Assembly: GCF_036488675.1 (NCBI RefSeq)
Contig: NZ_CP133152.1
Coordinates: 930,001-994,000 of the forward strand
DNA length: 64,000 bases
Source of the DNA: Sinorhizobium chiapasense
GTDB lineage: Bacteria; Pseudomonadota; Alphaproteobacteria; Rhizobiales; Rhizobiaceae
Direction of reading: 5' to 3'
Shown: one piece after another, positions 40,097 through 60,069 of the stretch
Layout of the letters: every line of letters starts with the position of its first letter
Position numbering within the stretch: position 1 is the first letter of the stretch
The notes under the pieces: model-generated
The model's database searches: none
What the model saw: the letters and a program-made list of their open reading frames with translations, nothing else
Told to the model about the DNA's origin: nothing
Made by a program: the position numbers and the translations under genes

Positions 40097-40981
40097 TTAG
40101 CCCATCCGCTCGGACGCATAGCTTCCCGGGCTCGGTGGGAAGACGACGACGCGGTTGCCGTTGATGAAGCAGCGGTGGTGGATGTGGGCGTGCACGGCCC
40201 GGGCCAGCACCTGGCTTTCGACGTCGCGGCCGATCGAGACGTAGTCCTCGGCCGACTGCGCATGGGTGATGCGGGCGATGTCCTGCTCGATGATCGGACC
40301 CTCGTCAAGATCCGCGGTGACATAATGCGCCGTCGCGCCGATCAGCTTGACGCCGCGCTCATAGGCCTGCTTGTAGGGGTTGGCGCCCTTGAAGCTCGGC
40401 AGGAACGAATGGTGGATGTTGATGATCTTGCCCGACATCTTCTTGCATAGCGCGTCGGACAAGACCTGCATGTAGCGGGCGAGCACGATGAGTTCCGCGC
40501 CGGTCTGCTCGACGAGCTCCAGCAGCTGCGCTTCGGCCTTCGGTTTGTTCTCCTTCGTCACCTTGAAGCAGTGGAACGGAATGTCGTGGTTGACGACCAC
40601 CTTCTGGTAATCGAAGTGGTTGGAGACGACGCCGACGATGTCGATCGGCAGCGCGCCGATCTTCCAGCGGTAGAGCAGGTCGTTGAGGCAATGGCCGAAA
40701 CGCGACACCATCAACAGCACCTTCATGCGCTCGCTCGTATCATGCATTTCGGCGGCCATGCCGAATGTCTCGGCGATCGGCGCGAAGCCTCTTTCGAGCG
40801 CCTCCCGGCCTACGCCCTCCTCCGAGATGAAGCTGACACGCATGAAGAACAGACCCGTTTCGAGATCGTCGAACTGCGAGCTGTCGATGATGTTGCACCC
40901 CTGTTCGGCGAGATAGCCGGAAACTGCTGCAATGATGCCGGTCGTCGACCTGCACGTAATTGTAAGGATGTGCGATTTCAC
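40097..40981 (-). CDS. purU: Formyltetrahydrofolate deformylase
   Basis: 294 residues hydrolysing 10-formyl-THF to formate and THF. An N-terminal ACT domain (ILTITCRSTTGIIAAVSGYLAEQGCNII) is followed by a formyltransferase-like catalytic domain with KIINIHHSFLPSFKG and GATAHYVTADLDEGPII. The GTG at 40981 follows AAGGAAG. It is the last gene of the minus-strand eut/sox operon, 37 bases after eutE, and would recycle folate loaded with one-carbon units by the sarcosine-oxidase-like complex. A 9-bp hairpin (41004-41023) spans the eutE stop. Confidence 0.93.
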   Translation of the reverse strand: MKSHILTITCRSTTGIIAAVSGYLAEQGCNIIDSSQFDDLETGLFFMRVSFISEEGVGREALERGFAPIAETFGMAAEMHDTSERMKVLLMVSRFGHCLNDLLYRWKIGALPIDIVGVVSNHFDYQKVVVNHDIPFHCFKVTKENKPKAEAQLLELVEQTGAELIVLARYMQVLSDALCKKMSGKIINIHHSFLPSFKGANPYKQAYERGVKLIGATAHYVTADLDEGPIIEQDIARITHAQSAEDYVSIGRDVESQVLARAVHAHIHHRCFINGNRVVVFPPSPGSYASERMG

Positions 40982-41018
40982 GACTATCTTCCTTGGAATA
41001 TGATGTAGCTCAGATGAG

Positions 41019-42017
41019 CTACACCGCGACGACCGCCACACAGTCGCCCGGCTTGACCAGACCGGGAAAGTGCCGTGCGGCCAGCAGGCCATCCATTTTT
41101 GCCTTTATCGTGACAGCGTCAGCACCGGTGCGCCCGATAGGGTAGATGCGGGCGACCGCGTCGCCCTTCCGCACCTTCTCCCCAAGATCGACGAGAGGCT
41201 CGATCAGGCCTCCATCCTCCGCGAACAGGAAGCAGTCTCCGTCCGGCATGTCGAGCCATTCGGTCTTCGATATCTCGACTGCACCCTTCAGGATGCCGGC
41301 GGCGCGAAGCACGTTCCTGACGCCACGTTTGGCAATGCCCGCGCTCCTGGCGGTTGCCGTTCCGCCGCCGCCAAGCTCGGTGGTAATGAACACCTTGCCC
41401 ATCTCCTCGGCCGCGGTGTCGTACATGCCGACCGCGTCGATCTCCAGCATCTTCATCGACCAGGGCGCGCCGAACGCCCTGACGAGTTCGAAGGCCCTTG
41501 CCTCCTGCTCCTTGTCGGGCAGGATGTGCGCCGCGCAGAACGGCAGGAAGTCCAGCGTCCTTCCGCCCGAGTGGAAGTCGAGGACGATGTCGGCGAGCGG
41601 CAGGAGCTCTCGCTGAAAATAGTCGGCGATCTTCTGCGTCACGGTGCCGTCCGGTCTTCCCGGAAAGCTCCGGTTCATGTTGCCCTTGTCGATCGGCGAC
41701 GTGCGGGTGCCGGCGGTGAAGGCGGGGTAGTTCATGGCAGGTACGATGATGACGCGTCCCGTTACCTGCTCCGGCCCCAATGTCCGGGCGAGGTCGAAGA
41801 GCGCGATCGGCCCTTCGTACTCGTCGCCGTGGTTGCCGCCCGTGAGAAGGGCCGTCGGCCCATTCCCATTCTTGACAACGGTGATCGGGATCATCACCGA
41901 TCCCCAGGCGGAGTCATCGCGGCTGTAGGGCAACCGCAGGAAGCCGTGCTGGACGCCGTCGGCCGAAAAATCGACGCTTGCTGAGATCGGCGATGGCCGC
42001 AATATCGTCTCCGTCAT
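41019..42017 (-). CDS. eutE: N-acetyl-diaminobutyrate deacetylase, ectoine degradation
   Basis: 332 residues of the succinylglutamate desuccinylase/aspartoacylase family (DoeB/EutE). Zinc ligands are visible in TGGNHGDEYEGPIAL and DIVLDFHSGGRTLDF. It removes the acetyl group from N-alpha-acetyl-diaminobutyrate, the product of ectoine ring opening, giving diaminobutyrate and acetate. It lies seven bases after the ectoine hydrolase gene, which supports the assignment. Confidence 0.88.
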   Translation of the reverse strand: MTETILRPSPISASVDFSADGVQHGFLRLPYSRDDSAWGSVMIPITVVKNGNGPTALLTGGNHGDEYEGPIALFDLARTLGPEQVTGRVIIVPAMNYPAFTAGTRTSPIDKGNMNRSFPGRPDGTVTQKIADYFQRELLPLADIVLDFHSGGRTLDFLPFCAAHILPDKEQEARAFELVRAFGAPWSMKMLEIDAVGMYDTAAEEMGKVFITTELGGGGTATARSAGIAKRGVRNVLRAAGILKGAVEISKTEWLDMPDGDCFLFAEDGGLIEPLVDLGEKVRKGDAVARIYPIGRTGADAVTIKAKMDGLLAARHFPGLVKPGDCVAVVAV

Positions 42018-42023
42018 TTGCTG

Positions 42024-43205
42024 CTAGTCCTTGATTAAGAGCTGGCGCGGCACATTGGCGAAGCACTCGACGCCCGTCTCGGTGATGAGGATGCTTTCCG
42101 TCGTCTCGAAGCCCATGTCCTCGAGCCAAAGCCCCGTCATGAAGTGGAAGGTCATGCCCGGCTTGAGTTCCGTCCTGTCGCCGGGACGCAGGCTCATGGT
42201 GCGCTCGCCCCAATCAGGCGGATAGGAAAGCCCGATCGGATAGCCGGTGCGGTTGTCCTTGACGATGCCGTATTTCTTCAGGACCGCGAAGAAGGCTTTG
42301 GCTATATCCTCGCAGGTATTGCCCGGCCTGGCGACTGCAAGTCCCGCCTCCATTCCTTCGAGGGTCGCCTTTTCCGCGTCGAGAAAGGCTTTCGTCGGCT
42401 TGCCGAGGAAGACGGTGCGCGACAGCGGCACATGGTAACGATTGTAGCAGCCGGCGATCTCGAAGAAGGTGCCTTCCCCCGCCCTCATGGGCTTATCGTC
42501 CCAGGTGAGATGCGGTGCGGTTGCGTCACGGCCCGACGGCAGCAGCGGCACGATCGCCGGGTAGTCACCGCCGATACCGTCGACCCCGCGCGTGCCGGCG
42601 TCATAGATCTCCGCAACGAGATCGCATTTGCGCATGCCGACCTCGATCTTGTCGAAGATGCGCCGATGCATGCCCTCGACGATACGCGCGGCGTTGCGCA
42701 TATACTTGATCTCGGTCTCGCTCTTGACCGCGCGCTGCCAGTTGACGAGCGCCGTCGCGTCGACGAAGCGAGCATTGGGCAGATGCTTTTGCAGCGAGGC
42801 AAAAGCGGCGGCGGAGAACCAGTAGTTGTCCATCTCGACGCCGATGCGGAGCGCCGCCCAGCCGCGGTCGGCAAGGATGCCGGAGAGGTAATCCATCGGA
42901 TGGCGCTCGGTGGACTGCACGTAGTGGTCGGGATAGCCGATGATGTTCTCGTGCTTCAGATAGGTGGTCAGCTTCGCCCCGTTGGCGTCCTGACCGCGGC
43001 CATACCAGATCGGTTCGCCCGACGGCGGTACGATCACGGCCTGGTGCACGTAGAACGACCACCCGTCATAGCCGGTCAACCAGGCCATGTTCGAAGGGTC
43101 GCTGACGATCAGCAGATCGATGCCCTTCGCCTCCATCGACTGGCGCGTTTTCAGAAGTCTTGCTTCGTATTCTCGGGAAGAGAATTTGAGATTGGGTTGC
43201 GTCAT
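42024..43205 (-). CDS. eutD: Ectoine hydrolase (M24/creatinase-like)
   Basis: 393 residues of the M24 pita-bread fold, close to DoeA/EutD, which open the ectoine ring. Typical blocks: DPSNMAWLTGYDGWSFYVHQ near residue 35, DGIGGDYPAIVPLLPSGRDATAPHLTWDD and GYPIGLSYPPDWGERTMSLRPGDRTELKPGM. The usual two-metal ligand set of M24 aminopeptidases appears incomplete, as in creatinase-like members. GGAGGAGG stands before the ATG. A paralogue of the same length is at 51377. Confidence 0.9.
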   Translation of the reverse strand: MTQPNLKFSSREYEARLLKTRQSMEAKGIDLLIVSDPSNMAWLTGYDGWSFYVHQAVIVPPSGEPIWYGRGQDANGAKLTTYLKHENIIGYPDHYVQSTERHPMDYLSGILADRGWAALRIGVEMDNYWFSAAAFASLQKHLPNARFVDATALVNWQRAVKSETEIKYMRNAARIVEGMHRRIFDKIEVGMRKCDLVAEIYDAGTRGVDGIGGDYPAIVPLLPSGRDATAPHLTWDDKPMRAGEGTFFEIAGCYNRYHVPLSRTVFLGKPTKAFLDAEKATLEGMEAGLAVARPGNTCEDIAKAFFAVLKKYGIVKDNRTGYPIGLSYPPDWGERTMSLRPGDRTELKPGMTFHFMTGLWLEDMGFETTESILITETGVECFANVPRQLLIKD

Positions 43206-43225: not shown

Positions 43226-44218
43226 CTAGCTTTCAAACGTGGTCCCGGCATCCGCCGCCCTGGCCCGCGCAAAGGCGAGAGTGGCGATCGCCGTATCCTG
43301 AATGCCCGTGCCGGTGAGATCCGCGATGGTGATATGATCGGCATCAGCGCGTCCCTGCCTCTGCCCGGCAATGATCTGCCCAAGCTCCGGGAAGTCACGT
43401 CCTGCCTCGACAACGCCTGCCTCGATGGCGTGATGCAGTTCGCCCAGCCTGCGTGTTTGCGCGAGGCTGTCGGCCACATACAGATCCGCGCGGCCGATGA
43501 CGGCGGGCTCGATCTCGTTCTTGTGCTCGGCGTCCGATCCCATCGCCGTAACGTGCTGTCCCTTCTCGAGCCATTCCGCCTTCAGTATGGGCGTGGAGGA
43601 CGGCGTCGTCGTGATGATGACGTGTGCGCCCGAAACAGCCGCCTCGGCGTCTGAAATGGCGGTCACAGGGATCCCGAGCTTTGCGGTGAGTTCCTCCGCG
43701 GCGGCCTTGGCCCTCGAATGATCTCGCGCCCAGATGCGCGCTTCGCGGATGGGCCGCACCAGCGCAAGTGCCTGAAGCTGCAGCTTCGCCTGCATCCCGG
43801 CACCCAAAACCGCGGCAAGGCTCGCATCCTGCCGGGCGAGATATTTGGCCGCAACCGCTCCGGCGGCGGCCGTACGAACATCCGTCAGGTAGCCGTTGTC
43901 GAGCAGCAGCGCCTCCACGAGTCCGGTGCGGCTCGACAGAAGCACCATCATTCCGTTGGTGCTCGGCAACCCGATCTTCGGATTGTCGAAGAAGCCAGGG
44001 CTGATCTTGATTGCAAAGCCCTCGATGCCGGGAACGTAGGCGGTCTTGACGTCGACCTCGCCGCGGTACTCCGGAATGTCCAGCCGCAGGATGGGCGGCA
44101 TCGCCACGGCGTTCGTGGCCAAGGCATGGAACGCGCCCTCGACGCAATCGACCGCCTCGAGGTCGAGCGATACGACCGCCCTCAGATCGGCCTCTGTGAG
44201 AATCTTCATTTGCCTCAT
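43226..44218 (-). CDS. eutC: Ornithine cyclodeaminase-family protein EutC
   Basis: 330 residues of the ornithine cyclodeaminase/mu-crystallin family: DVRTAAAGAVAAKYLAR, then the NAD-binding VLGAGMQAKLQLQAL, and MGSDAEHKNEIEP. In ectoine loci EutC and EutB are thought to convert hydroxylated diaminobutyrate derived from hydroxyectoine. GGAGG precedes the ATG, which overlaps the eutB stop by four bases. Confidence 0.87.
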   Translation of the reverse strand: MRQMKILTEADLRAVVSLDLEAVDCVEGAFHALATNAVAMPPILRLDIPEYRGEVDVKTAYVPGIEGFAIKISPGFFDNPKIGLPSTNGMMVLLSSRTGLVEALLLDNGYLTDVRTAAAGAVAAKYLARQDASLAAVLGAGMQAKLQLQALALVRPIREARIWARDHSRAKAAAEELTAKLGIPVTAISDAEAAVSGAHVIITTTPSSTPILKAEWLEKGQHVTAMGSDAEHKNEIEPAVIGRADLYVADSLAQTRRLGELHHAIEAGVVEAGRDFPELGQIIAGQRQGRADADHITIADLTGTGIQDTAIATLAFARARAADAGTTFES

Positions 44219-45201
44219 GTTCTAACCTCCCGAAGGGGATCCGTTTCGCCGTTTATCACGCGCAGATGCAGCCCCATGTCGATGTTGCGTCCCGATAGGA
44301 TCAGCGCGATGGGTCCGCCAATGTTTCTGATCTTGCCCGCCAAGAGCGCCGCGAAGCCGACCGCCCCTGCCCCCTCGACGATCTCGCGTTCCTGCTCATA
44401 GGCGTGACGAATGCCGGCGGCGATCTCGTCTTCGGAAAGCAGCACGACCTCGTCGAGGAGATCGCGGCACATGGCGAACGTCACTCGGTTGTCGAGTCCG
44501 ATCCCCCCGCCGAGCGAGTCCGCAAGGCTTGCCTCTTCCTCGACTTGCACGGGGCGGCCGGCGTCGAGGCTTGCCTTCATCGCCGCACCGCGCTCCATCG
44601 TCAGCCCGATCACGCGTGCCTCTGGCCGGCATGCTTTGACCGCGGCGGCGACACCCGCCGCGAGCCCGCCGCCCGACAGCGGCGCCAGTACCATCGACAC
44701 CTCCGGCATGTCCTCGACAATCTCGAGCCCCAACGTGCCCTGTCCGGCAACAATTGCCGGATGGTCAAACGGCGGCACCATCACCAGGCCTTCCTCGCTG
44801 ACCAGTCGGTCGACCTCCTGCTGGGCCTCGTCCTGCGACCGGCCGACGATCCTCACATTCGCGCCGAGGCGTCGGATCTCCGAGACCTTGTTCTCCGGCA
44901 CCAGCCGCGACATGCAGATCGTCGCGCTAGATCCTTCGGCTTTGGCCGCATGGGCGAGCGCCCGGCCGTGATTGCCCGTCGAAGCTGCCACGACGCCGCG
45001 GGCCCGCTGCTCAGGGCTGAGCGACAGGACGGCGTTTGTAGCGCCGCGCAGCTTGAAGCTGCCGGTGGTCTGGTGGTGTTCGAGCTTCAGGCCGACAGGC
45101 ACGCCGCAGCGCTCGGACAGCGCCGCGGAAAGGACAAGCGGCGTGCGCAGCACCCGGCCGGCGATCCTTTGGCGGGCAGCCAGGAAAGTGTCGAGTTCCA
45201 T
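44215..45201 (-). CDS. eutB: Threonine dehydratase-like PLP enzyme EutB
   Basis: 328 residues of fold-type II PLP enzymes. The Schiff-base Lys is at position 50 (TTGSFKLRGA), the phosphate loop is in PLSGGGLAAG, and STGNHGRALAHAA follows. EutB acts on the hydroxyectoine branch, probably as hydroxy-diaminobutyrate dehydratase. The ATG at 45201 overlaps the soxG stop (TGATG) with GGAGG ten bases upstream; starts at 45210 and 45222 are poorly spaced. Confidence 0.87.
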   Translation of the reverse strand: MELDTFLAARQRIAGRVLRTPLVLSAALSERCGVPVGLKLEHHQTTGSFKLRGATNAVLSLSPEQRARGVVAASTGNHGRALAHAAKAEGSSATICMSRLVPENKVSEIRRLGANVRIVGRSQDEAQQEVDRLVSEEGLVMVPPFDHPAIVAGQGTLGLEIVEDMPEVSMVLAPLSGGGLAAGVAAAVKACRPEARVIGLTMERGAAMKASLDAGRPVQVEEEASLADSLGGGIGLDNRVTFAMCRDLLDEVVLLSEDEIAAGIRHAYEQEREIVEGAGAVGFAALLAGKIRNIGGPIALILSGRNIDMGLHLRVINGETDPLREVRT

Positions 45202-45698
45202 CACCGACATACCTCCAGCCATTCAGAGATGCTTCTGGCGAAGCTTCGCGGTACGACGAATGCGCCATCGTGCTCCGAGGAACGCGTGAACATGACCGGG
45301 ATACGGTGCAGCGAGGAAAAGGTCGCAACGCCGAGCGTGCGTTCCCAGTCGATCGCCAGACACTTGGAGACGACATCGCGCAGATCCGGCGTGGTCACCT
45401 CGATGCGTATCCGCCCTTCGCTGAGGTCGAGCCTGCAGCCCAATTCGGGCGGAATGCCGGAAGCAATCGCCGACGCGCGCTCCGCCGGGAAGATCCAGAA
45501 GCGGCGTGGTCCCGCACGGACGACCTTCATGCCGTCGCGCTCAGCAATCCCGCCGACCTGCGTCGGCAGGGCACCACCGAACTGACGGGCAAGCGCCGGT
45601 TCGAACGCAGCGAGTGTGCCCTCCCATGCATCACATTGAATGAGCGGGCATGGCAGTTGCTTCAGCACCATGGCCTTGGCGGATGACATCTCAACCAT
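45201..45698 (-). CDS. soxG: Sarcosine oxidase gamma subunit-like
   Basis: 165 residues resembling SoxG, the small gamma subunit of heterotetrameric sarcosine oxidases (QVGGIAERDGMKVVRAGPRRFWIF ... RIRIEVTTPDLRDVVSKCLAIDW ... IPVMFTRS). The ATG at 45698 overlaps the soxA end; an ATG at 45689 is possible. Gamma subunits evolve fast, so the position after soxB-D-A carries much of the weight. Confidence 0.78.
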   Translation of the reverse strand: MVEMSSAKAMVLKQLPCPLIQCDAWEGTLAAFEPALARQFGGALPTQVGGIAERDGMKVVRAGPRRFWIFPAERASAIASGIPPELGCRLDLSEGRIRIEVTTPDLRDVVSKCLAIDWERTLGVATFSSLHRIPVMFTRSSEHDGAFVVPRSFARSISEWLEVCR

Positions 45699-48630
45699 GC
45701 ATGCGTTCTCCGGCGGGATCGAGGAAGACAGGCGAAACGACGCGCGCCCGCACGACTTCATTTTTCATGGGATAGGAAGCAATCACCTCGTCGCCCTCGA
45801 AGTTTGCGGCGAGGAGGCCGAGGCCGACGTAGCAGTCGAGTTCCGGACTGTAGGTGATCGACGTCATGCGGCCGTGGCCGTGGCCTTCGAGTGGCTCGCC
45901 GGGCGCGAACAGAAGCGCCCCGCCGCGAAGCCGTTTGCCGGGTTCGACGCATTTCAGGCCGACCAGTCGCTGGCGGTTTGCCGCCTGAAAAGCCTCCCGA
46001 CGGCTGAGCGCCTCTCCGACATAGCCGCTTCGCTTGGCGACCATCCGTCCCATGCCGAGGTCCGAGAAAGTCGTTCTGCCGTCGATTTCGGGGCCGGCCA
46101 CGTGGCCTTTTTCGACGCGCAGCGCACCGAGCGCCTCCACGCCGTAGGGTTTCAAGCCGTAGGGTGCGCCGACATCGACGAGGTGTCGCCAGGCGTTCTC
46201 GCCATTCGAGGCCCCGACATAGATCTCGTAGGCGCGCTCACCCGAATAGCTGAGGCGTACGATCCTAAGCGGACTATCCTTGAACGTTCCCTCGGCCAGC
46301 CCCATGTGCGGCAGCGCCTCGTTGGAGAAATCGATATCCGGGAAAGCGGCCGCGAGTATCTCGCCACTCTCGGGCCCTGCGACTGACATGCCCGCCCATT
46401 CGTCGCTGACCGACGAAACGGAGACACGCAGATCCGGCCACGCCGTATCCAGAAGGAATTCCAGCCAGGAAAGCACGTCCGCGGCCTTGGCCGTCGACGT
46501 CGTCATGAAGAAGCGGTTTTGCTCCAGGCGCGTCGTCGTTCCGTCATCGAAGACGATGCCGTCGTCGCGCAGCATGACGCCGTAACGCGCCCGCCCGACC
46601 TTGAGGCTGGCGAAGCCATTGGCATAGACCCGGTCGAGAAAGGCGGCCGCGTCCGGTCCCTGGATGTCGATCTTGCCGAGCGTCGAGATATCCATGATCC
46701 CCGCCGCGGACCGCACGTGCCGCATTTCGTTGACGTATGCCGCATTCACGTCCTTGCCGGAGGCCTCGAAGAACCACGGCCGCATCCAGAGCCCGACTTC
46801 GAGCATTTGCGCGCCGTTTGCCGTGTGCCAGTCGTGGATGGGCGTGAGGCGGTAGGGACGGAAATGGTGACCCGTCGCACGTCCGGCAACCGCCCCGATC
46901 GTCACCGGCGTGTAGGGCGGCCGGAACGTGGTCGTTCCGGCCTCCGGGATCGATATCCCGCGCAGCTTGGCCATCACCTTCAAGGCGTTGATATTGCTGG
47001 TCTTACCCTGGTCCGTTCCCATCCCCAGCGTCGTATAGCGCTTGAGATGTTCGACCGACTCGTAGCCTTCCCGCTGGGCCAGTTGGATATCGTCAAGCGT
47101 CACGTCCATCTGGAAATCGACGAATGCCTTTCGCTGACCAAAGATCGGCTTGTAGACGGTCGTCGGACCGGCGTTTTCCTCGATCTCCAACGCGCGCGCT
47201 TCGGCTACCGTCCCCACCTTTCCAGCGACGGCGGCCGCCGCGCGGCCGGCGCTCGCACCCTCGGCGACCGCCGCCGAGATGCTCAAGCTTCCGGTCGCCG
47301 CACCGGCGACGAACTGGGTTTCAGGGAGCTGCCCCGGAACAAAAGCATCGATGTCCGGCCGGTAGACAGGCTTCACTCCCTGGTGCGACGTCAAATGCAG
47401 CACCGGAGACCAGCCGGCGGACATGCCGACCAGATCGCAGGTGACGCTGGTCTTGCCTGCCTTTCCGGCAAGCACGACGCCCTGTACCGCATATTTGCCT
47501 TTCACGCCCGCCACATTCGTTCCGAGATGGACCTCGGCGCCCATTTGCTTCGCCTTCGCCAGCAGCGTCGGCTCCGCGAGCGGCCTTGCGTCGGCGATCG
47601 TGACCCGTGCCCCGTGGGCGAGGAGATCGAAAGCGGTGAGATAGGCGCTGTCGTCGGCGGTCGCGATTACGACATTCCTGCCCGGCAGAACCGCGTAGCG
47701 ATTGATATAGGCCCTGATCGCCGAGTTCAGCATGACGCCGGGCCGGTCATTGTTCGAAAAGACCATCGGCCGCTCGACCGCGCCGGTCGCGAAGACGATG
47801 CTCTGTGCGCGCAGCAGCGTGAAGGTTTTCCGCGCCGAATCCATGCCGCGCCCCGCGAACGGATCTGCATCCTCGATCAGCGCGAGCGTATTCCCGTCGT
47901 AGAGTCCGAAAGCGGTCGTCCGTCGCATGATGCGCACGTTCCGCATGTCCTCAAGCTCTGTCCGTATCGCGTGCAGCCATGCCGCTCCGGCAGGCTCGGA
48001 AAGCAGGCGCCCGCCGATTTCGAAGTCCTGCTCGATCAGCAGCACGCGCGCTCCGGCTTGCGCGGCGGCCCGGGCGGCGGAAAGTCCGGCCGCCCCACTG
48101 CCGACGACCGCCACGTCCGTGAAATCGTCACGGGAGTCGTACACATCTGGGTCCGGCATCATTGTCGCTTTGCCGAGACCCGCAGCCTTGCGGATAAAGT
48201 GCTCATAGAACATCCAGGCCCGGCGGCTCGGTCCCATGAAGGTCTTGTAGTAGAACCCCGGGGGAAGGAGCGGACTGAACAGGCTGTTGATGCTCTGGAC
48301 ATCGAAACGCAATGACGGCCAGTTGTTCTGGCTTGCCGCTTCCAGACCGGTTGTCAGTTCAAGCATCGTGGCCGGCAGGTTCGTCTCCCGGCGCGCGCCC
48401 GTGCCAACCGTCACCAGCGCGTTCGGCTCCTCAACGCCGGCGGAGAGAATGCCGCGGGGACGATGATACTTGAAACTCCTGCCGACCAGCGAGACCCCGC
48501 TCGCGAGCAGGGCGGAAGCGAGCGTGTCTCCCTTCAATCCCGCATACTGACGGCCATCGAACATAAACTTGAGGACTTGCGAGCGGTCCAGATATCCGCC
48601 TGACGCAAGGCGCTTTTCGGTGGGTGTCAT
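45691..48630 (-). CDS. soxA: Sarcosine oxidase alpha subunit-like
   Basis: 979 residues, the length of SoxA. Order: 2Fe-2S-like N-terminal domain (LKFMFDGRQYAGLKGDTLASALLASGVSLVGRSFKYHRPRG), NAD/FAD domain with VAVVGSGAAGLSAARAAAQAG, a central oxidoreductase part, and the C-terminal folate-binding aminomethyltransferase domain (from about residue 600; LGKIDIQGPDAAAFLDRVYAN ... ALRVEKGHVAGPEIDGRTTFSDLGMGRMV). The complex oxidatively demethylates N-methyl amino acids, passing the one-carbon unit to THF. Its presence between M24 and eut genes is unusual; sarcosine itself may not be the substrate. Confidence 0.9.
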   Translation of the reverse strand: MTPTEKRLASGGYLDRSQVLKFMFDGRQYAGLKGDTLASALLASGVSLVGRSFKYHRPRGILSAGVEEPNALVTVGTGARRETNLPATMLELTTGLEAASQNNWPSLRFDVQSINSLFSPLLPPGFYYKTFMGPSRRAWMFYEHFIRKAAGLGKATMMPDPDVYDSRDDFTDVAVVGSGAAGLSAARAAAQAGARVLLIEQDFEIGGRLLSEPAGAAWLHAIRTELEDMRNVRIMRRTTAFGLYDGNTLALIEDADPFAGRGMDSARKTFTLLRAQSIVFATGAVERPMVFSNNDRPGVMLNSAIRAYINRYAVLPGRNVVIATADDSAYLTAFDLLAHGARVTIADARPLAEPTLLAKAKQMGAEVHLGTNVAGVKGKYAVQGVVLAGKAGKTSVTCDLVGMSAGWSPVLHLTSHQGVKPVYRPDIDAFVPGQLPETQFVAGAATGSLSISAAVAEGASAGRAAAAVAGKVGTVAEARALEIEENAGPTTVYKPIFGQRKAFVDFQMDVTLDDIQLAQREGYESVEHLKRYTTLGMGTDQGKTSNINALKVMAKLRGISIPEAGTTTFRPPYTPVTIGAVAGRATGHHFRPYRLTPIHDWHTANGAQMLEVGLWMRPWFFEASGKDVNAAYVNEMRHVRSAAGIMDISTLGKIDIQGPDAAAFLDRVYANGFASLKVGRARYGVMLRDDGIVFDDGTTTRLEQNRFFMTTSTAKAADVLSWLEFLLDTAWPDLRVSVSSVSDEWAGMSVAGPESGEILAAAFPDIDFSNEALPHMGLAEGTFKDSPLRIVRLSYSGERAYEIYVGASNGENAWRHLVDVGAPYGLKPYGVEALGALRVEKGHVAGPEIDGRTTFSDLGMGRMVAKRSGYVGEALSRREAFQAANRQRLVGLKCVEPGKRLRGGALLFAPGEPLEGHGHGRMTSITYSPELDCYVGLGLLAANFEGDEVIASYPMKNEVVRARVVSPVFLDPAGERMHG

Positions 48631-48893
48631 GCCCGTTGCCTTCTTGAAAAACTGACCGAATGGATCGAATGCGTGACAGTGTCGCGCTCGACGACGAGCC
48701 ATTGGCGGCAGCCGAGAACGTGCTGCCAAAATTCGCGATGCAGCCCCTTGGGATTGGCCCGCACGTATACATAGCGGTACCAGGCATCGAGATCCGGATT
48801 GTCGTGAGCGGGCCGCTCGGCGGTGGCATCGCCGCCGTAACGGAATTCACTGTGGTCACGCACGCCGCAGCAGGGGCAGTCGATACGAAGCAT
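48627..48893 (-). CDS. soxD: Sarcosine oxidase delta subunit-like
   Basis: 88 residues. It starts MLRIDCPCCGVRDHSEFRYGG and continues with WYRYVYVRANPKGLHREFWQHVLGCRQW, the standard SoxD pattern with Cys and His ligands for one zinc. It overlaps soxA by four bases and lies nine bases after soxB. Confidence 0.92.
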   Translation of the reverse strand: MLRIDCPCCGVRDHSEFRYGGDATAERPAHDNPDLDAWYRYVYVRANPKGLHREFWQHVLGCRQWLVVERDTVTHSIHSVSFSRRQRA

Positions 48894-52558: not shown

Positions 52559-52588
52559 GACATCTCCTCCACCGTGTATGACGCCATA

Positions 52589-52685
52589 GATGTGTACATC
52601 ATTTTTGGCAGCACGCAACAGGATCTCCGCAAATTTGAGATTTTTGCAGGCCGCCTTGCCAAAACGAGAGTCAGATGTATACTTC
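52589..52685. promoter_or_regulatory. Candidate GntR operators in the ehu/eut divergent promoter
   Basis: Two related motifs, GATGTGTACATC (52589-52600) and GATGTATACTTC (52674-52685), share the GATGTrTAC core. One stands 31 bases upstream of the minus operon start and the other 64 bases before ehuB. FCD-type GntR regulators use such GTnTAC-like palindromes, and the gene at 55837 is the obvious candidate. Confidence 0.55.
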
Positions 52686-52748
52686 TATTCTCTCGCGAGG
52701 CATTCATGCCGTCCGAGGCGAACACCATCTTCAAAAAAAGGGGAACCC

Positions 52749-53675: not shown

Positions 53676-54404
53676 ATGTGGATTCGTATGCTCGCCGCGA
53701 TGCTCGCGGCAACCTTGTTGCTGATTGCCCTGCTTTCGGCCAACCCTGAATACCGGCTCTTCATGCCGGGCCTCTTCGAAGGCGCCGTGCTGACGGTGGA
53801 GATAACGCTTCTGGGAGCCGTGCTCGCTGTGTTCATGGCCCTGATAGCAGCGCTCGCAAAGCTCTACAGCCCGCTGCCGATAAGGTGGCTTTCGACAACC
53901 TACATTGAGATCTTCCGCGGAACTTCCGCGTTGGTGCAGCTCTTTTGGCTCTATTTCGTCCTGCCGCAATTCGGCGTCTTCCTTGACGCCTTCCTGGTGG
54001 CGGTTCTGGCGCTCGGCCTGAACATAGGAGCCTATGGAGCGGAGGTGGTCCGAGGTGCCATCCTCTCCGTGGCCCGCGGGCAGTGGGAGGCTTCGATCGC
54101 GCTCAACATGTCGAAGGCACAAATGCTGCGTCGGATCATCCTGCCTCAGGCCTTTACGGCCATGATCCCTCCCTGGGGCAACCTTTTTATCGAACTCGTG
54201 AAGTCTACCTCGCTGGTTTCCCTGATTACGCTGGCGGACCTTACCTTCAAAGCCCAGCAAATGAACCAGACAACACTGAAGACGGTACCCGTGTTTACCC
54301 TCGTGCTGCTGATCTATCTGGCCATTTCTCTAACCGTCACCATTGCCATGCGCCTGCTTGAGCAGCGTGCGTCGAAGGGACTGACACGCGGAAGGGTCGC
54401 CTGA
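53676..54404 (+). CDS. ehuC: Ectoine/hydroxyectoine ABC permease
   Basis: 242 residues of HisMQ-type permeases. The EIFRGTSALVQLFWLYFVLPQFG region and the coupling loop VVRGAILSVARGQWEASIALNMSKAQMLRRIILPQAF are clear, as is IELVKSTSLVSLITLADLTF. Overlaps ehuD by one base. Confidence 0.88.
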   Translation: MWIRMLAAMLAATLLLIALLSANPEYRLFMPGLFEGAVLTVEITLLGAVLAVFMALIAALAKLYSPLPIRWLSTTYIEIFRGTSALVQLFWLYFVLPQFGVFLDAFLVAVLALGLNIGAYGAEVVRGAILSVARGQWEASIALNMSKAQMLRRIILPQAFTAMIPPWGNLFIELVKSTSLVSLITLADLTFKAQQMNQTTLKTVPVFTLVLLIYLAISLTVTIAMRLLEQRASKGLTRGRVA

Positions 54405-55051
54405 TGTGGGATTGGACATTCACATTCGAGATTCTGCCGGTCCTCGCTCGGGCGGCGATCATGACGATCGAAGCGACCGCTCTCGGTTTCGCCATAGCGG
54501 CGACACTCGGGCTTGTGCTCGCCTCCATCAGGCTGGCTTTTCCGGCCGCCGGCGTCGTGGTCACAGTGTTGGTGGAACTGATCCGGTCGACGCCCCTGCT
54601 CATCCAGATATTCTTCCTTTACTTCGTCTTGCCGAAGGCAGGGATCGTGCTGGACGCGTTTACGGCGGGCGTGGCAGCCATAGGCATTCACTACGCCGCC
54701 TATTGCTCCGAGGTTTACCGGGCCGGATTCGAGAACGTTCCGAGGGGCCAATGGGAGGCATCGATCGCTCTCAATCTGTCTCCATGGAACACTTTCAAGG
54801 ATATAATCCTGCCTCAGGCCCTGCCTCCGATCGTTCCAGCGCTCGGAAACTATCTGATAGCGTTGTTCAAGGAGACGCCCCTGCTCTCGGCCATTGCGGT
54901 CCTCGAACTCATGCAGACCGCAAAGAACATCGGATCCGAGACCTTCCGCTATACCGAGCCCGTGACGCTCGTTGGGGTGTTCTTCCTGGTTATGAGTCTC
55001 GTTTCAGCGGGCATGGTCCGGATGCTCGAATCGTGGTTGCAGCGGAGATAA
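54404..55051 (+). CDS. ehuD: Ectoine/hydroxyectoine ABC permease
   Basis: 215 residues, the partner of ehuC with the same topology (ELIRSTPLLIQIFFLYFVLPKAG, VYRAGFENVPRGQWEASIALNLSPWNTFKDIILPQALPPIVPALGNYLIALFKETPLLSAI). Three bases separate it from the ATPase gene. Confidence 0.88.
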   Translation: MWDWTFTFEILPVLARAAIMTIEATALGFAIAATLGLVLASIRLAFPAAGVVVTVLVELIRSTPLLIQIFFLYFVLPKAGIVLDAFTAGVAAIGIHYAAYCSEVYRAGFENVPRGQWEASIALNLSPWNTFKDIILPQALPPIVPALGNYLIALFKETPLLSAIAVLELMQTAKNIGSETFRYTEPVTLVGVFFLVMSLVSAGMVRMLESWLQRR

Positions 55052-55054: not shown

Positions 55055-55834
55055 ATGAACGACATGCCAATGGTACGCTTCGAGAACGTTTCAAAACGAT
55101 ACGGCGCACTCACCGTTCTCGACAATCTCAACCTCGATATCGGCCGTGGGGAAAAGGTGTCGATCATCGGTCCCTCGGGCTCCGGAAAGACCACCGTGCT
55201 GCGCATGCTCATGACGCTGGAAGCCATCAATGACGGTGTCCTCTGGGTCGACGGAGAGCCCATGACGCATATGATGCAAAACGGCAAGCTTGTGCCCGCG
55301 ACCACCAAGCACATGCGCCGGATCCGCGCGAAAATCGGCATGGTATTCCAGTCCTTCAACCTGTTCCCCCACATGACGGCGATAGGAAACTGCATCGAAG
55401 CTCCGATAACCGTGCTCGGAATGAAGCGCTCGGAGGCCGAGGAACGCGCGGCAGAGCTGTTGGACATGGTCGGCCTGTCCGCCAAGAAGGATCACTACCC
55501 GTCGCAGCTGTCGGGCGGTCAGCAGCAGCGCGTGGCGATCGCGCGGGCACTTGCAATGCGGCCGAAGATCATGCTGTTCGACGAAGTGACGTCGGCGCTC
55601 GACCCGGAACTTGTGGGCGAAGTGCTGCAGGTTATAAGGAAGATCGGCCGCGAGCACGACTTGACCATGCTCATGGTTACCCACCAGATGGGTTTCGCCA
55701 AGGAGTTTTCGGACCGGGTGTGCTTCTTCTATCAAGGTAAGATTTGCGAACAGGGCGCTCCTGCGGAAATCTTTGGAAACCCCAAGAACGAAAGGACAAG
55801 ACAGTTTCTCAACGCTGTCTTGGAAGCAGGATAG
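55055..55834 (+). CDS. ehuA: Ectoine/hydroxyectoine ABC transporter ATPase
   Basis: 259 residues. Walker A GPSGSGKTT near residue 38, Q-loop VFQSFNLFPHMTAIGNC, signature [15 protein letters not shown], Walker B IMLFDEVTSALDPE and H-loop VTHQMGFA. The THMMQNGKLVPATTKHMRRIR insert before the Q-loop fits EhuA. Energises uptake through EhuC/EhuD. Confidence 0.88.
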   Translation: MNDMPMVRFENVSKRYGALTVLDNLNLDIGRGEKVSIIGPSGSGKTTVLRMLMTLEAINDGVLWVDGEPMTHMMQNGKLVPATTKHMRRIRAKIGMVFQSFNLFPHMTAIGNCIEAPITVLGMKRSEAEERAAELLDMVGLSAKKDHYPSQLSGGQQQRVAIARALAMRPKIMLFDEVTSALDPELVGEVLQVIRKIGREHDLTMLMVTHQMGFAKEFSDRVCFFYQGKICEQGAPAEIFGNPKNERTRQFLNAVLEAG

Positions 55835-55836
55835 CC

Positions 55837-56568
55837 TTGCACCCTGAATTGCCCGGCAACGTCGAAACCAGCGCCGCCTTCCAGCCGGTATCGGCCAGAG
55901 AGAGGTTCGACCGGATATATCATACTCTCAGGAACCGTATCTGCATGCTCGAGTACGCGCCGAGCAGCCGCCTGTCCGAGGAAGAGTTGGCAAAGGAATT
56001 TTCTACCAGTCGCACGCCAGTAAGGCGTGTGCTGGCAAGGCTGGAGTCCGAAGGGCTGGTGGAATCGGTGCATGGTGTCGGAACGATCGTGACCGACCCC
56101 GATATCGGCGAATTGGTGCAGATCTATCATTTGCGGATGGAGCTTGCGCTTCTCGTCGGCAAGCTCTCGCCGATCCCGCGCAGCGCCGAGGATCTGGAAC
56201 GGATCAGGGCGCTGATAGCCCGCTGCGACGAGGAGATGAAAAATCCCACGCAAAAGGCCTTCCTGCACCTGAATATGGCGTTCTTTACCGAAATCAGGGC
56301 GTTCACAGGAAACCTGCCGCTGCGGGAGATCAGCGAGCGGCTGTACTATCAGGTCGTTCGCGTCGTGCTGAAGATGATGCCGAAGCTGGGATTGGCGGAA
56401 GAGTACTCGGCCTTTCGCAACGAGATGCAGGCCGTCCTGTCTGCTGCGGAAATCGGCGACTGGGAGGCGATCGGATACATTCGGCGGGCCCACATTTCGA
56501 TGAGCTTCCACCGCATGATGGCCTACGCCGACAAGTCGGAACTGTCCGAAGAGCGTTCCAAGGCATGA
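55837..56568 (+). CDS. GntR-family (FCD) transcriptional regulator
   Basis: 243 residues: a winged helix (IYHTLRNRICMLEYAPSSRLSEEELAKEFSTSRTPVRRVLARLESEGLVESVHGVGTIV) and an all-helical FCD-like effector domain. It starts with TTG at 55837, two bases after the ehuA stop, with CAGGA upstream, so it is expressed with the transporter. It is the likely local regulator of the ehu and eut/sox operons, in the place held by EnuR (MocR type) in other ectoine loci. Confidence 0.85.
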   Translation: MHPELPGNVETSAAFQPVSARERFDRIYHTLRNRICMLEYAPSSRLSEEELAKEFSTSRTPVRRVLARLESEGLVESVHGVGTIVTDPDIGELVQIYHLRMELALLVGKLSPIPRSAEDLERIRALIARCDEEMKNPTQKAFLHLNMAFFTEIRAFTGNLPLREISERLYYQVVRVVLKMMPKLGLAEEYSAFRNEMQAVLSAAEIGDWEAIGYIRRAHISMSFHRMMAYADKSELSEERSKA

Positions 56569-57050
56569 TCAAGCTTGACGCCATTGATCTGCGCATCCTG
56601 GAGGCGATCCAGAAGGATGGAAGAATTACCAAGCTGGCGCTTGCCGAGAAGGCGGGGCTGTCGCCAACACCTTGCTGGCTCAGACTGAGGAAACTGGAAA
56701 AAGCCGGCATAGTGACGGGCTATCACGCACGACTCGCCATGCGCCGAGTCACGCCGGTCACGAGTGTTCTCACCGAGATCACGCTCGGCAACCACCGCCA
56801 GACCGATTTCGAACGCTTCGAACGCGTGATCGCCTCGATCCCCGAAATCGTCGCCTGCTGGTCGGTCGGCGGCGGCGTCGACTACATTCTGAAAATCATG
56901 ACACCCGACGTCGACGCCTACCAGCGGCTCATTGATGGCTTGCTGGATCGCGAATTGGGCATAGACCGCTATTTCACCTATATCGTCACCAAGACGGTCA
57001 AGGAAGAAACCCTGCTCCCGCTCACCAGCCTGCTGCCTCGGGCGCCGTAG
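56565..57050 (+). CDS. asnC: Lrp/AsnC-family regulator
   Basis: 161 residues: HTH (LDAIDLRILEAIQKDGRITKLALAEKAGLSPTPCWLRLRKLEKAGIVTGYHA) and the RAM ligand domain. It overlaps the GntR gene by four bases. An asnC-ssd-atf trio recurs in ectoine degradation loci, where AsnC responds to diaminobutyrate-type intermediates (DoeX/AsnC). Confidence 0.9.
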   Translation: MIKLDAIDLRILEAIQKDGRITKLALAEKAGLSPTPCWLRLRKLEKAGIVTGYHARLAMRRVTPVTSVLTEITLGNHRQTDFERFERVIASIPEIVACWSVGGGVDYILKIMTPDVDAYQRLIDGLLDRELGIDRYFTYIVTKTVKEETLLPLTSLLPRAP

Positions 57051-57168
57051 ACAATCCGGCTGTCCAGTCCGGCTTATTTGGTCCAACTCTCTGCTGCGTG
57101 CGGGCGGAATAGACAACTTCTCTCCCCCTTGCGGTCCAGACTAGCCGCAACAAGAGAGGAGATCGGAT

Positions 57169-58665
57169 ATGACTGCTGTTTTCGCACGCACGACCTTCCA
57201 TGACGCATTGAACCACCTGAATGATCGGCAACTCCTGCGGGAGCTCGCCTATGTCGGTGGGCGCTGGGTTGCCGGGCGTGATGGCAAGGCCTTCGAGGTG
57301 CAAGACCCCGCAACCGGCGCGACGCTTTCCTGGGTCGCCTCGCTCGACGCCACCCAAACTTCGGAAGCCGTCGATGCCGCTGCCGGGGCTTTCCTGGCAT
57401 GGCGTAGCACGCTGCCGCAAGCGCGCGCCGCAATTCTGCGCAAATGGTACGAGCTGATGCTTGCCGCCAAGGAGGATCTCGCGCTGCTGATGACGCTGGA
57501 GCAGGGCAAACCGCTTGCGGAATCCCGCGGCGAAATCGACTATGCCGCCTCCTTCATCGAATGGTATGCCGAGGAAGGCAAGCGGCTCAACGCCGAAAGC
57601 GTGACGAGCCATCTGCCGGGCGCGGAGATGATCGTGCGCCGCGAAGCACTCGGCGTAGTCGGCATCGTCACGCCCTGGAATTTCCCCTCGGCGATGATCA
57701 CCCGAAAGGCGGCCGCGGCACTTGCCGCCGGCTGCACCGTCGTTGCCCACCCCTCCTCCGAAACGCCGCTTTCCGCCCTGGCGCTCGCAGGGCTCGGCGA
57801 GCGCGCCGGCCTGCCGGCCGGCGTCTTCAACGTTGTCACCGGTGATGCCGCGACCATTGTCGGCCGCCTGTGCGAGGAACCACGCGTTCGCGCCATGAGC
57901 TTCACCGGCTCGACCGAGATCGGCAAGCTGATCGCCCGCCAGTGCGCTCCGACGATGAAGCGGCTGGTGATGGAACTGGGCGGCCATGCGCCGCTAATCG
58001 TGTTCGCCGATGCCGATGTGGAGAAGGCGGCGGACATCGCGATCGCCGCAAAATTCGCGACCTCGGGGCAGGACTGCCTGGCGGCGAACCGCATCTATGT
58101 CGAACGACCGATCATCAAAGCCTTCAACGAGGCTTTCGCTGCACGCGTTTCCCGTCTCAAAGTCGGCGCGGGGCTCGCACAGGAAACCGACATCGGACCG
58201 CTCATGCATGAGCGCGCCATCGCCAAGCTCGAGGAGCAGGTAACCGACGCGCTGAAGCGCGGCGCAAAACTCGCGATCGGCGGCAAGCGGCACGTCGCAG
58301 GGCCGCTGTTCTTCCAGCCGACCGTGCTCACCGATGTACCGGACGACGCGCTGATCATGCGCGAAGAGACATTCGGCCCCGTGGCCGCCGTCACCGTATT
58401 CGACAGAGAGGATGAGGTGATCACCCGAGCGAACGACACCGAATATGGCCTCGTGGCCTATGTCGTCACCGAAAACGGCGCTCGCCAACTGCGGCTCGCC
58501 CGGGCTCTCGAATACGGAATGGTAGCAATCAACCGGGTGAAGATCACCGGCGGGCCGATCCCTTTCGGCGGCTGGAAGCAGTCCGGCCTGGCACGCGAAG
58601 GCTCCCGTCATGGCATGGAGGCCTTCACCGAACTCAAATATCTCTGCATCGACACCGCCGCCTGA
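57169..58665 (+). CDS. ssd: NAD(P)-dependent (succinate) semialdehyde dehydrogenase
   Basis: 498 residues of the aldehyde dehydrogenase superfamily. The catalytic Glu is at about residue 269 (VMELGGHAP) and the catalytic Cys at 303 (SGQDCLAANR); FTGSTEIGKLIA binds the nucleotide. Related to GabD. In the ectoine pathway it would oxidise aspartate semialdehyde to aspartate. AGAGAGGAG lies before the ATG. Confidence 0.87.
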   Translation: MTAVFARTTFHDALNHLNDRQLLRELAYVGGRWVAGRDGKAFEVQDPATGATLSWVASLDATQTSEAVDAAAGAFLAWRSTLPQARAAILRKWYELMLAAKEDLALLMTLEQGKPLAESRGEIDYAASFIEWYAEEGKRLNAESVTSHLPGAEMIVRREALGVVGIVTPWNFPSAMITRKAAAALAAGCTVVAHPSSETPLSALALAGLGERAGLPAGVFNVVTGDAATIVGRLCEEPRVRAMSFTGSTEIGKLIARQCAPTMKRLVMELGGHAPLIVFADADVEKAADIAIAAKFATSGQDCLAANRIYVERPIIKAFNEAFAARVSRLKVGAGLAQETDIGPLMHERAIAKLEEQVTDALKRGAKLAIGGKRHVAGPLFFQPTVLTDVPDDALIMREETFGPVAAVTVFDREDEVITRANDTEYGLVAYVVTENGARQLRLARALEYGMVAINRVKITGGPIPFGGWKQSGLAREGSRHGMEAFTELKYLCIDTAA

Positions 58666-58689
58666 ACGGATTTGACGAAAGGAAAGACC

Positions 58690-60069
58690 ATGCTCAACAG
58701 AAACAACGAACTCACCGCCTGGGACCGCGACCATTTCTTCCATCCGTCCACGCATATGGGTATGCATGCGCGCGGCGAAACCCCGACGAGGGTCATCGGC
58801 GGCGGCGAAGGCGTTTACATCACCGACATTGCCGGCAAGCGCAGCCTCGATGCCTTCGCTGGTCTCTACTGTGTCAATGTCGGCTACGGCCGGCAGAAGA
58901 TTGCCGAGGCGATCGCCGAACAGGCGAAGAACCTCGCCTACTATCACGCCTATGTCGGCCACGGCACCGAGGCGTCGATCCGGCTCTCCAAGATGATCAT
59001 CGATCGTGCGCCGGAAAGCATGAGCCGCGTCTATTTCGGCCTCTCCGGTTCGGATGCCAACGAGACCAACATCAAACTGATCTGGTACTACAACAACATT
59101 CTCGGCAGGCCCGAGAAGAAGAAGATCATTTCTCGTTGGCGCGGCTATCACGGTTCAGGTGTGATGACGGGCTCGTTGACCGGCCTCCAGCTTTTCCATA
59201 ATGCCTTCGACTTGCCGCGCGCACCGATCCTGCACACCGAGGCGCCCTACTATTTCCGCCGGCCGGACCGCTCGATGAACGAAGAGCAGTTCTCGCAATA
59301 TTGCGCCGACAAGCTGGAGGAGATGATTCTCGCCGAAGGGCCGGATACGGTCGCGGCCTTCATCGGTGAGCCGATCCTTGGTACAGGCGGCATCGTGCCG
59401 CCGCCGAAGGGCTATTGGCAGAAGATCCAGGCGGCGCTCGAGAAATACGACATCTTGCTCGTCGCAGACGAGGTCGTGACGGGCTTCGGCCGCCTTGGCA
59501 CAATGTTCGGCTCCGACCACTACGGCATCAAGCCCGATCTCGTCACCATCGCCAAGGGCCTGACGTCGGCCTATGCGCCGCTTTCCGGCAGCATCGTTTC
59601 GGAAAAGATGTGGCAGGTGCTGGTGCAGGGGTCGGACGAACTCGGCCCGATCGGCCACGGCTGGACCTATTCCGCCCACCCGATCTGCGCTGCGGCCGGC
59701 ATCGCCAATCTCGAACTAATCGACGAACTCGGCATTGTCGAGAACGCCGGCTCGACCGGAGCCTATTTCCGATCCGAGCTTGCAAGGGCGCTCTCCGAGC
59801 ACCGGCACGTCGGCGAAGTGCGCGGGGACGGCCTGATGGCGGCGATCGAGTTCGTTGAGGATAAAGACGACCGGAAGTTCTTCGATCCGGCGCAGAAGGT
59901 CGGACCAAGAGTGGCGACAGCGCTGGCGGAGCGCGGTGTCCTCGGCCGGGCGATGCCGCAGGGTGACATCCTGGGGTTTGCCCCGCCGCTCTGCCTGACG
60001 CGCGATGAGGCCGACATCGTCGTGAAGGCCGCAGTCGGCGCCATCACTGAAGTTCTCGGCAACAAATAG
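58690..60069 (+). CDS. atf: Class III aminotransferase, diaminobutyrate transaminase
   Basis: 459 residues of PLP fold type I omega-aminotransferases. VGHGTEASIRLSKMI, VFGLSGSDANET-like YFGLSGSDANETN, LLVADEVVTGFGRLG and the PLP Lys at about 289 (VTIAKGLTSAYAPL) are seen. With ssd it would turn diaminobutyrate into aspartate semialdehyde and aspartate (DoeD/Atf role). The ATG at 58690 follows AAAGGAAAG. Confidence 0.88.
   Translation: MLNRNNELTAWDRDHFFHPSTHMGMHARGETPTRVIGGGEGVYITDIAGKRSLDAFAGLYCVNVGYGRQKIAEAIAEQAKNLAYYHAYVGHGTEASIRLSKMIIDRAPESMSRVYFGLSGSDANETNIKLIWYYNNILGRPEKKKIISRWRGYHGSGVMTGSLTGLQLFHNAFDLPRAPILHTEAPYYFRRPDRSMNEEQFSQYCADKLEEMILAEGPDTVAAFIGEPILGTGGIVPPPKGYWQKIQAALEKYDILLVADEVVTGFGRLGTMFGSDHYGIKPDLVTIAKGLTSAYAPLSGSIVSEKMWQVLVQGSDELGPIGHGWTYSAHPICAAAGIANLELIDELGIVENAGSTGAYFRSELARALSEHRHVGEVRGDGLMAAIEFVEDKDDRKFFDPAQKVGPRVATALAERGVLGRAMPQGDILGFAPPLCLTRDEADIVVKAAVGAITEVLGNK

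Follow-up and report, generated by a model that had tools for sequence, protein, structure and literature searches.

An ectoine catabolic locus of Sinorhizobium fused with a putative N-methyl-amino-acid demethylation module

The 64,000-nucleotide stretch of Sinorhizobium chiapasense contig NZ_CP133152.1 analysed here (positions 930,001 to 994,000; hereafter the window) carries 19 genes arranged as two divergent operons, 11 on the minus and 8 on the plus strand, around a common region of 190 bp. The minus arm reads M24a, M24b, soxB, soxD, soxA, soxG, eutB, eutC, eutD, eutE and purU, and the plus arm ehuB, ehuC, ehuD, ehuA, gntR, lrp, ssd and atf, so that genes for ectoine import and catabolism share one locus with a probable folate-linked demethylase set. 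We regard it as a real, conserved fusion, a variant of ectoine loci unreported in the literature searched, whose substrate is probably an N-methylated relative of ectoine. The initial annotation had described the two operons with one region between them, a complete ectoine importer on the plus arm and tight junctions; all 19 genes were confirmed, EhuB, EhuC, EhuD and EhuA all scored above their family cut-offs, and the junctions agreed on re-reading (TGATG overlap at soxG/eutB, ATGA at eutB/eutC, nine bases between M24b and soxB). To these can be added an ATGA overlap at soxD/soxA, nine bases between soxB and soxD, and 37 bases between eutE and the GTG start of purU. The features are as follows, in window coordinates, with scores in bits.

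40097..40981, minus strand: purU, formyl-tetrahydrofolate (formyl-THF) deformylase, GTG start; TIGR00655, 332.8 against a cut-off of 285.95.
41019..42017, minus strand: eutE/doeB, N-acetyl-diaminobutyrate deacetylase; TIGR02994, 620.5 against 402.7.
42024..43205, minus strand: eutD/doeA, canonical ectoine hydrolase; TIGR02993, 823.9 against 613; DoeA 6twk, E 2.3e-164.
43226..44218, minus strand: eutC, imine reductase-like; TIGR02992, 583.9, above cut-off.
44215..45201, minus strand: eutB, pyridoxal phosphate-dependent dehydratase; TIGR02991, 568.8, above cut-off; ATG at 45201, alternative starts at 45210 and 45222.
45201..45698, minus strand: soxG-like gamma subunit; TIGR01375, 52.3, below the cut-off of 143.95.
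45691..48630, minus strand: soxA-like alpha subunit with a GcvT-type folate domain; TIGR01372, 1229 against 1164.
48627..48893, minus strand: soxD-like delta subunit; PF04267; TIGR01374, 108.9, just below the cut-off of 116.5.
48903..50159, minus strand: soxB-like catalytic beta subunit of the N-methylglutamate dehydrogenase (NMGDH) clade, by maximum-likelihood tree and GWCYGGFK signature; TIGR01373, 660, above cut-off.
50169..51317, minus strand: M24b, DoeA-fold hydrolase of a separate subfamily; TIGR02993, 152 against 613; NF038259, 198.5 against 575.
51377..52558, minus strand: M24a, diverged ectoine-hydrolase paralogue, its GTG start at 52558 picked by alignment; TIGR02993, 479 against 613; NF038259, 162.2 against 575; DoeA 6twk, E 3.9e-115.
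52559..52748, no strand: common divergent control region, 190 bp.
52588..52600, no strand: operator-like site 1, AGATGTGTACATC, on the M24a side.
52673..52685, no strand: operator-like site 2, AGATGTATACTTC, covering the second hexamer of the best promoter-like site, that of ehuB at 52656-52683.
52749..53612, plus strand: ehuB, solute-binding protein of a diverged type by its site residues; TIGR02995, 308.6 against 190.9.
53676..54404, plus strand: ehuC, permease; TIGR03004, above cut-off.
54404..55051, plus strand: ehuD, permease; TIGR03003, above cut-off.
55055..55834, plus strand: ehuA, ATPase; TIGR03005, above cut-off.
55831..56568 (start approximate), plus strand: GntR/FCD regulator; PF00392 and PF07729.
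56565..57050, plus strand: Lrp/AsnC regulator; PF01037.
57169..58665, plus strand: ssd, semialdehyde dehydrogenase; top matches are SSADH models, below their cut-offs.
58690..60069, plus strand: atf, aminotransferase, ATG at 58690; NF005684, 863.8 against 687.

The assignment to an ectoine locus made in the initial annotation stands for EutB, EutC, EutD and EutE, all above their cut-offs, and has to be qualified for the remainder, the locus having no eutA and a GntR/FCD regulator in place of the MocR-type EnuR. TIGR02990 found no eutA at E 1e-30 in the window genome, and the best EnuR match there is only 34% identical and sited elsewhere; many described ectoine loci lack EutA. EutB also matches BhcB (197 bits) and EutC the iminosuccinate reductase BhcD (185 bits), both below cut-off. 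Neither gmaS nor mgsABC is among the 19 genes.

The two palindrome-like sites, AGATGTGTACATC and AGATGTATACTTC, lie 85 bp apart in the divergent region, where the GntR/FCD regulator would bind them. At least two GTRYAC cores were found in all 39 distinct intergenic regions shorter than 500 bp from loci in divergent order with ehuB at least 60% and M24 at least 55% identical, against 1.15 of 39 in mononucleotide shuffles; the motif was picked after viewing the window, and the set omits five entries of about 2.2 kb, from four distinct loci, in which eutBC intervenes. The exact operator pattern occurs twice in the 6.87 Mb genome, both times in this region, and its reversed control not once. With two mismatches allowed, the window holds seven matches against 3.5 expected, four of which are the two sites read on both strands; the remaining ones are not upstream of eutB, lrp or ssd. 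Sinorhizobium and Shinella have the sites about 85 bp apart and most Mesorhizobium about 95 bp, near 8 and 9 helical turns.

The Sox subunits, initially labelled as of sarcosine-oxidase type, have to be reassigned. In a maximum-likelihood tree of 33 selected SoxB rows, that of the window falls with MgdA of P. aminophilus in a clade of 28 rows (support 100/98), which also holds the Sox of Thalassospira and Parasedimentitalea and every included M24b-linked Sox except one from Chloroflexi (L131), a row on a very long branch; TSOX and a genus-wide paralogue lie outside this clade, in which the window forms a branch of its own and the forks are partly open. The residues preceding GGFK are GT in the TSOX rows and five paralogues and CY or NY in the other groups, the window SoxB carrying GWCYGGFK and not the TSOX-type GWGTGGFK, and SoxD and SoxG score below the NCBIfam sarcosine-oxidase cut-offs. 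On this sequence evidence SoxB is NMGDH-like rather than sarcosine-oxidase-like; a plain sarcosine oxidase is ruled out by clade and signature. A second SoxB, 52-53% identical to that of the window, is present in all 33 genomes of the genus (partial in one) and is TSOX-like in the five copies examined. The Sox of Maritimibacter and P. methylarcula nest in the MgdA group (97/97), and therefore Sox seems to have joined M24b repeatedly. The folate link proposed at the outset is supported, PurU fitting a folate-linked demethylase. In published work, mgd clusters are linked with folD and purU (PMC7574528), SAR11 soxBDAG is listed as a putative NMGDH (PMC3160333), and mgdABCD is named on pAMI6 (PMC4543880), which we take to be the four genes at 21749-26772 of locus L149.

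The M24 enzymes had been described as creatinase-like and as yielding N-methylglycine. Among solved M24 structures, DoeA outranks creatinase for both by sequence and for M24b also by fold, M24b having the fold of DoeA, so that a creatinase identity is ruled out and, by implication, an N-methylglycine product is unsupported; both proteins stay well below the ectoine-hydrolase cut-offs (TIGR02993, NF038259). Plain creatine or sarcosine use parked beside ectoine genes, with an M24 creatinase releasing sarcosine for oxidation by Sox, is highly improbable.

A SoxB at least 97% identical to that of the window is encoded in 10 of the 33 genomes of the genus, namely the window and nine further Sinorhizobium regions, and gene order is identical in all ten. 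The recurrence of this order in nine further genomes argues that it is not due to chance, and the sox-with-ectoine arrangement is retained: both pathways belong to a single conserved unit under one control region, neither separate control nor lack of conservation being found in the sequence. The nearest named plasmid relatives of the window are those of S. mexicanum and S. terangae. Mean ratios of nonsynonymous to synonymous substitution between the window and eight of the nine fused genomes (L140 omitted) were 0.035 for soxB, 0.057 for M24b, 0.056 for M24a and 0.062 for eutD, soxG being the loosest at 0.262, and indicate that the genes of the fused locus are under purifying selection. Of the nine other fused genomes, seven encode a complete purU; in L140 a contig end truncates the gene, and in L137 (genome G026) it is broken. 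In this last region, also recorded as L078, purU (from 19010) keeps the first 21 codons only and the remaining operon is kept. Outside the genus, Sox lies inside an ectoine locus in Dongia and in a metagenome-assembled genome (MAG, L104), and adjoins one in Burkholderia 8Y.

Scanning GTDB contigs with M24b (tblastn with window proteins, thresholds of our own setting, 10-kb flanks) yielded 59 loci. M24b homologues are more numerous than this set, 2487 of 8000 scored candidates matching at E 1e-60. soxB occurs in 34, 26 without and 8 with eutBC; another 19 have eutBC without sox and six have neither, leaving 53 with one or the other. M24a accompanies 28 of the 34 sox loci against 2 of the 25 other M24b loci. 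The module ehuBCDA-gntR // M24a-M24b-soxBDAG stands alone, free of eut genes, in Mesorhizobium, Shinella and Rhizobium sullae, and the modules of Burkholderia and Paraburkholderia carry more distant Sox. The Dongia and L104 MAG loci are made up of eutE, gntR, ehuADCB, eutBC, M24a, M24b, sox, lrp, ssd and atf. Neither genome has a DoeA-family match at E 1e-80 other than M24a, which therefore probably performs the role of EutD there. Some 6 kb separate the module of Burkholderia 8Y from a eutBCDE-lrp-ssd-atf locus. Among all M24b loci purU was seen in the fused ones only. When unlabelled open reading frames (ORFs) were clustered, no group extended over the loci of Mesorhizobium, Shinella and R. 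sullae. The largest, by Pfam on one member a Pfam-less ORF (13 loci) and an M20 peptidase (12 loci), belong mostly to eutBC-type loci without sox, and groups of eight and six loci are a short-chain dehydrogenase and a branched-chain-type permease. Selected neighbouring ORFs of four loci with neither sox nor eutBC (L105, L118, L123, L129) revealed no shared partner. In P. methylarcula a transporter gene of the BCCT (betaine/carnitine/choline) family sits between M24b and soxB (L125, 11199-12773).

The ten fused genomes differ from their relatives in the canonical ectoine genes that they keep. eutA exceeds its cut-off in 21 of the 33 genomes of the genus, and among the fused ones only in G015 (S. 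mexicanum), four others having weaker, sub-cut-off matches. An EnuR orthologue (at least 75% identity) is missing in the nine other than G015, G026 having a relative of 51%, and in seven the sole EhuB match at E 1e-40 is that of the locus itself (G015, G025 and G026 have more). G015 keeps both a canonical and a fused ectoine locus (L134 and L142), which a single replicon carries at a distance of about 150 kb; their copies share 99.6% nucleotide identity in eutD, 98.4% in eutB and eutC and 91.7% in eutE; thus the fused eut genes exchange with, or derive from, canonical ones. On the available sequences, the best explanation is that in most of this Sinorhizobium clade the importer and regulator of the Sox-containing unit took over the ectoine genes. 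The G015 copies also show how easily eut genes are moved or converted, and this, together with the 26 of 59 loci where the sox module stands without eutBC and with the loss of purU in one fused genome, would suit two unrelated nutrient pathways joined by chance, with no common substrate and a single promoter holding them. Such a union is nonetheless very unlikely, given separate integrations in Sinorhizobium, Dongia and the L104 MAG, the near-tandem arrangement in Burkholderia 8Y, the restriction of purU to fused M24b loci and the loss of the canonical regulator in nine of ten genomes.

The module is tied to ectoine genes also where the two lie apart. EutE exceeded its cut-off in all 25 sox-bearing genomes tested, against 8 of 15 with M24b and no sox and 151 of 394 in the family; the test took 40 of the 59 loci, the sox loci left out being three of Mesorhizobium and six of Sinorhizobium (eutE in place). 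The 25 positives include Burkholderia, Paraburkholderia, Maritimibacter, Paracoccus, Dongia and one MAG, six being non-Rhizobiales by title. An M20 peptidase, assigned by a Pfam run on the L123 member only, lies near M24b in L106, L108, L110, L113, L117, L119, L122, L123, L125, L126, L132 and L039; four of these loci (L106, L108, L119, L126) belong to genomes with no EutE above cut-off, and the peptidase is perhaps a substitute deacylase. Other ectoine genes were examined in eight genomes with a separate module. Four rhizobia (L144, L148, L156, L157) have a complete ehuABCD-eutABCDE elsewhere in the genome, and therefore their module should serve a substrate other than ectoine or hydroxyectoine; eutABCDE is present in P. 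methylarcula (L154), ehu with a eutBCDE set lacking eutA in Burkholderia and Paraburkholderia (L150, L155), and in Maritimibacter (L153) eutA, eutE and a fragment of eutB were seen. These genomes bear on another explanation, in which M24b and Sox would form an alternative 5-hydroxyectoine route replacing EutA, Sox acting on an imino acid or on a derivative N-methylated only in the cell. eutA (query from the canonical S. mexicanum locus) in only one of the 59 M24b loci is consistent with such a replacement, as are the 53 with eutBC or sox and only eight with both; we consider it quite unlikely, because no methyltransferase is among the 19 genes, five of the eight genomes (the four rhizobia and P. 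methylarcula) have eutABC elsewhere, and a folate-domain Sox together with PurU suggests that the compound already carries a methyl group when it is taken up.

EhuB was tried as a clue to the ligand. The window protein is 39-40% identical to EhuB of canonical loci in the genus, from which its type differs by Y60F, T133V, D117T, Q155S and G157L (in a numbering anchored on Glu21). This clue was dropped, the same changes occurring equally in sox-free loci.

Related Sox operons occur beside genes of other kinds. In Thalassospira marina (L040, 12604-19949) an aspartate ammonia-lyase gene overlaps soxB and is followed by soxDAG and purU, in what looks like an operon for N-methyl-aspartate catabolism. 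The plasmid of Mesorhizobium sp. 131-2-5 (L039, 8271-29254) carries an orthologous Sox (78%), doeA, two M20-type hydrolases, an M24b-like gene and ehu together with methylaspartate ammonia-lyase, CoA-transferase and CoA ester lyase, a variant pathway that may end in mesaconate. A parallel divergon lies on large plasmids of nodule isolates, Rhizobium jaguaris (L160), Rhizobium sp. CCGE532 (L161) and Mesorhizobium sp. 131-3-5 (L162), the three examined of nine plasmid matches: one side is ehuBCDA-aspartate dehydrogenase-GntR and the other M24b-like (45%)-amidase-soxBDAG (SoxB 43%, with GT before GGFK)-beta-eliminating lyase-threonine dehydratase-purU(-folD-RidA). In L162 it is adjoined (2087-5726) by genes for a MocE-like ferredoxin, an FAD oxidoreductase and a desaturase, which we take to resemble rhizopine catabolism (moc) genes. 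Another Sinorhizobium genome (G004, L152) has a SoxBDAG operon of 64% identity with M24b-like (41%), amidase and other ABC importer genes within 20 kb.

With these operons in mind, the Sox module could degrade an N-methylated acidic amino acid, amide or lactam of the N-methyl-aspartate or -glutamate type that does not derive from ectoine, the operon being common because both pathways feed aspartate or glutamate and use an importer of the same family. The grouping of SoxB with MgdA speaks for this, as do the lyase-to-purU operon of Thalassospira, the methylaspartate ammonia-lyase adjoining the orthologous Sox in Mesorhizobium 131-2-5, and the amidase and aspartate dehydrogenase of the parallel divergon. 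We nevertheless judge it unlikely, since it leaves no need for two DoeA-like hydrolases and an EhuB-family importer, EutE goes with the module in every genome tested, non-Rhizobiales included, and M24a takes the place of EutD in Dongia and the L104 MAG.

Our tentative preference, to which we give somewhat less than an even chance, is a fused catabolic divergon by which an N-methylated relative of ectoine would be imported, opened at its ring and N-demethylated. The substrate, the order of steps and the step at which each M24 enzyme acts are what we infer here, every chemical step being deduced from protein families. A first unit would consist of the diverged-type EhuBCDA, the GntR/FCD regulator, M24a and M24b, and soxBDAG as an N-methyl-amino-acid dehydrogenase of the NMGDH kind. 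EhuBCDA would import an N-methylated, ectoine-like cyclic amidine or amide, M24a or EutD and M24b would open the ring and hydrolyse the C-N bond, and EutE would deacetylate the product; SoxBDAG would then remove the N-methyl group, oxidising it onto tetrahydrofolate to give methylene-THF, and EutB with EutC any hydroxyl. The second unit, EutD, EutE, EutB, EutC, Lrp, Ssd and Atf, would lead to aspartate both from ectoine itself and from the diaminobutyrate-type product left by demethylation, Atf and Ssd providing the last steps, and FolD, encoded outside the operon, would pass the one-carbon unit with PurU to formate.

Several observations weigh against this preferred reading. Sigma-70-like sites number five against 4.1 in shuffles, which is no excess; one of the ten fused genomes has a broken purU; M24b is found beside eutBC where sox is absent in 19 of the 59 loci and is therefore not specific to demethylation; and six of the 34 sox loci lack M24a (Mesorhizobium L085 and L086, Burkholderia 8Y, Paraburkholderia diazotrophica, Maritimibacter and Paracoccus methylarcula). 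The EutE association is uncorrected for kinship, EutE being common in Mesorhizobium; each EhuB type occurs with and without sox, so its residues are uninformative on an N-methyl group; the methylaspartate or aspartate ammonia-lyases beside related Sox operons fit substrates of the N-methyl-aspartate type equally well; and the word 'methylectoine' appears in no paper of the literature searched. A bolder version, possible but doubtful, would be that alpha- and betaproteobacteria have a dedicated import and catabolic divergon for an ectoine-family compound not yet described, N-methylated, perhaps hydroxylated as well and available in the environment, with M24a and M24b as new amidine or amide hydrolases and SoxBDAG as an N-methyl-diaminobutyrate-type dehydrogenase, a new activity of the NMGDH/sarcosine-oxidase superfamily.

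Public annotation as sarcosine oxidase, Xaa-Pro peptidase or aminopeptidase P hides what is a recurring catabolic unit, and the locus shows ectoine catabolism captured by a different importer and regulator. That some soil and root-nodule bacteria join ectoine genes to a probable demethylase set suggests that they feed on an undescribed ectoine-like compound. Should the substrate be an N-methylated relative of ectoine, it would be an overlooked compatible solute or a plant or microbial metabolite whose pathway can be read in more than 30 genomes; should it not, two orphan hydrolase subfamilies and one branch of the NMGDH family are still given a testable function. Ectoine loci without eutA are described in PMC13188858 and PMC5924519, the former also containing ehuBCDA loci, and 'sarcosine' appears in their main texts once, in a reference title, or never. 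No report of the sox-ectoine arrangement was found in the literature searched, which included PMC13188858, PMC5924519 and PMC8739950, supplements and subscription papers lying outside, and no paper searched had ehuB together with soxB.

Compared with the canonical ehuABCD-eutABCDE locus (with enuR and asnC-ssd-atf; S. meliloti, Ruegeria pomeroyi), the window shares EutB to EutE, Lrp/AsnC, Ssd, Atf, an Ehu-family importer and the convergence on aspartate, but it lacks EutA and EnuR, has the order ehuBCDA and GntR/FCD control, and includes two extra DoeA-like hydrolases, SoxBDAG and PurU in its operon. With MgdABCD of P. aminophilus pAMI6 it has in common the four subunits in the same order, the SoxB clade, the GWCYGGFK signature and a nearby purU, folD being near MgdABCD as well, whereas the window operon is devoid of gmaS and mgsABC, its SoxB is 58% identical, and an importer and DoeA-like hydrolases are linked to it. 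The subunit plan and folate domain are those of TSOX (2gag, 3ada), and an aligned Arg and Lys, which we take to be the carboxylate-binding residues of TSOX, are kept in the window SoxB; the clade and the residues before GGFK are different, and SoxD and SoxG fall below the family cut-offs. Finally, the M24 fold is shared with DoeA/EutD (6twj, 6twk, 6yo9) and creatinase (1chm), and M24b retains the DoeA-type E..G..RYH segment, where metallopeptidases presumably have aspartate ligands; near its C-terminus, M24b of the window has SN in contrast to the SE or TE of DoeA-type rows.

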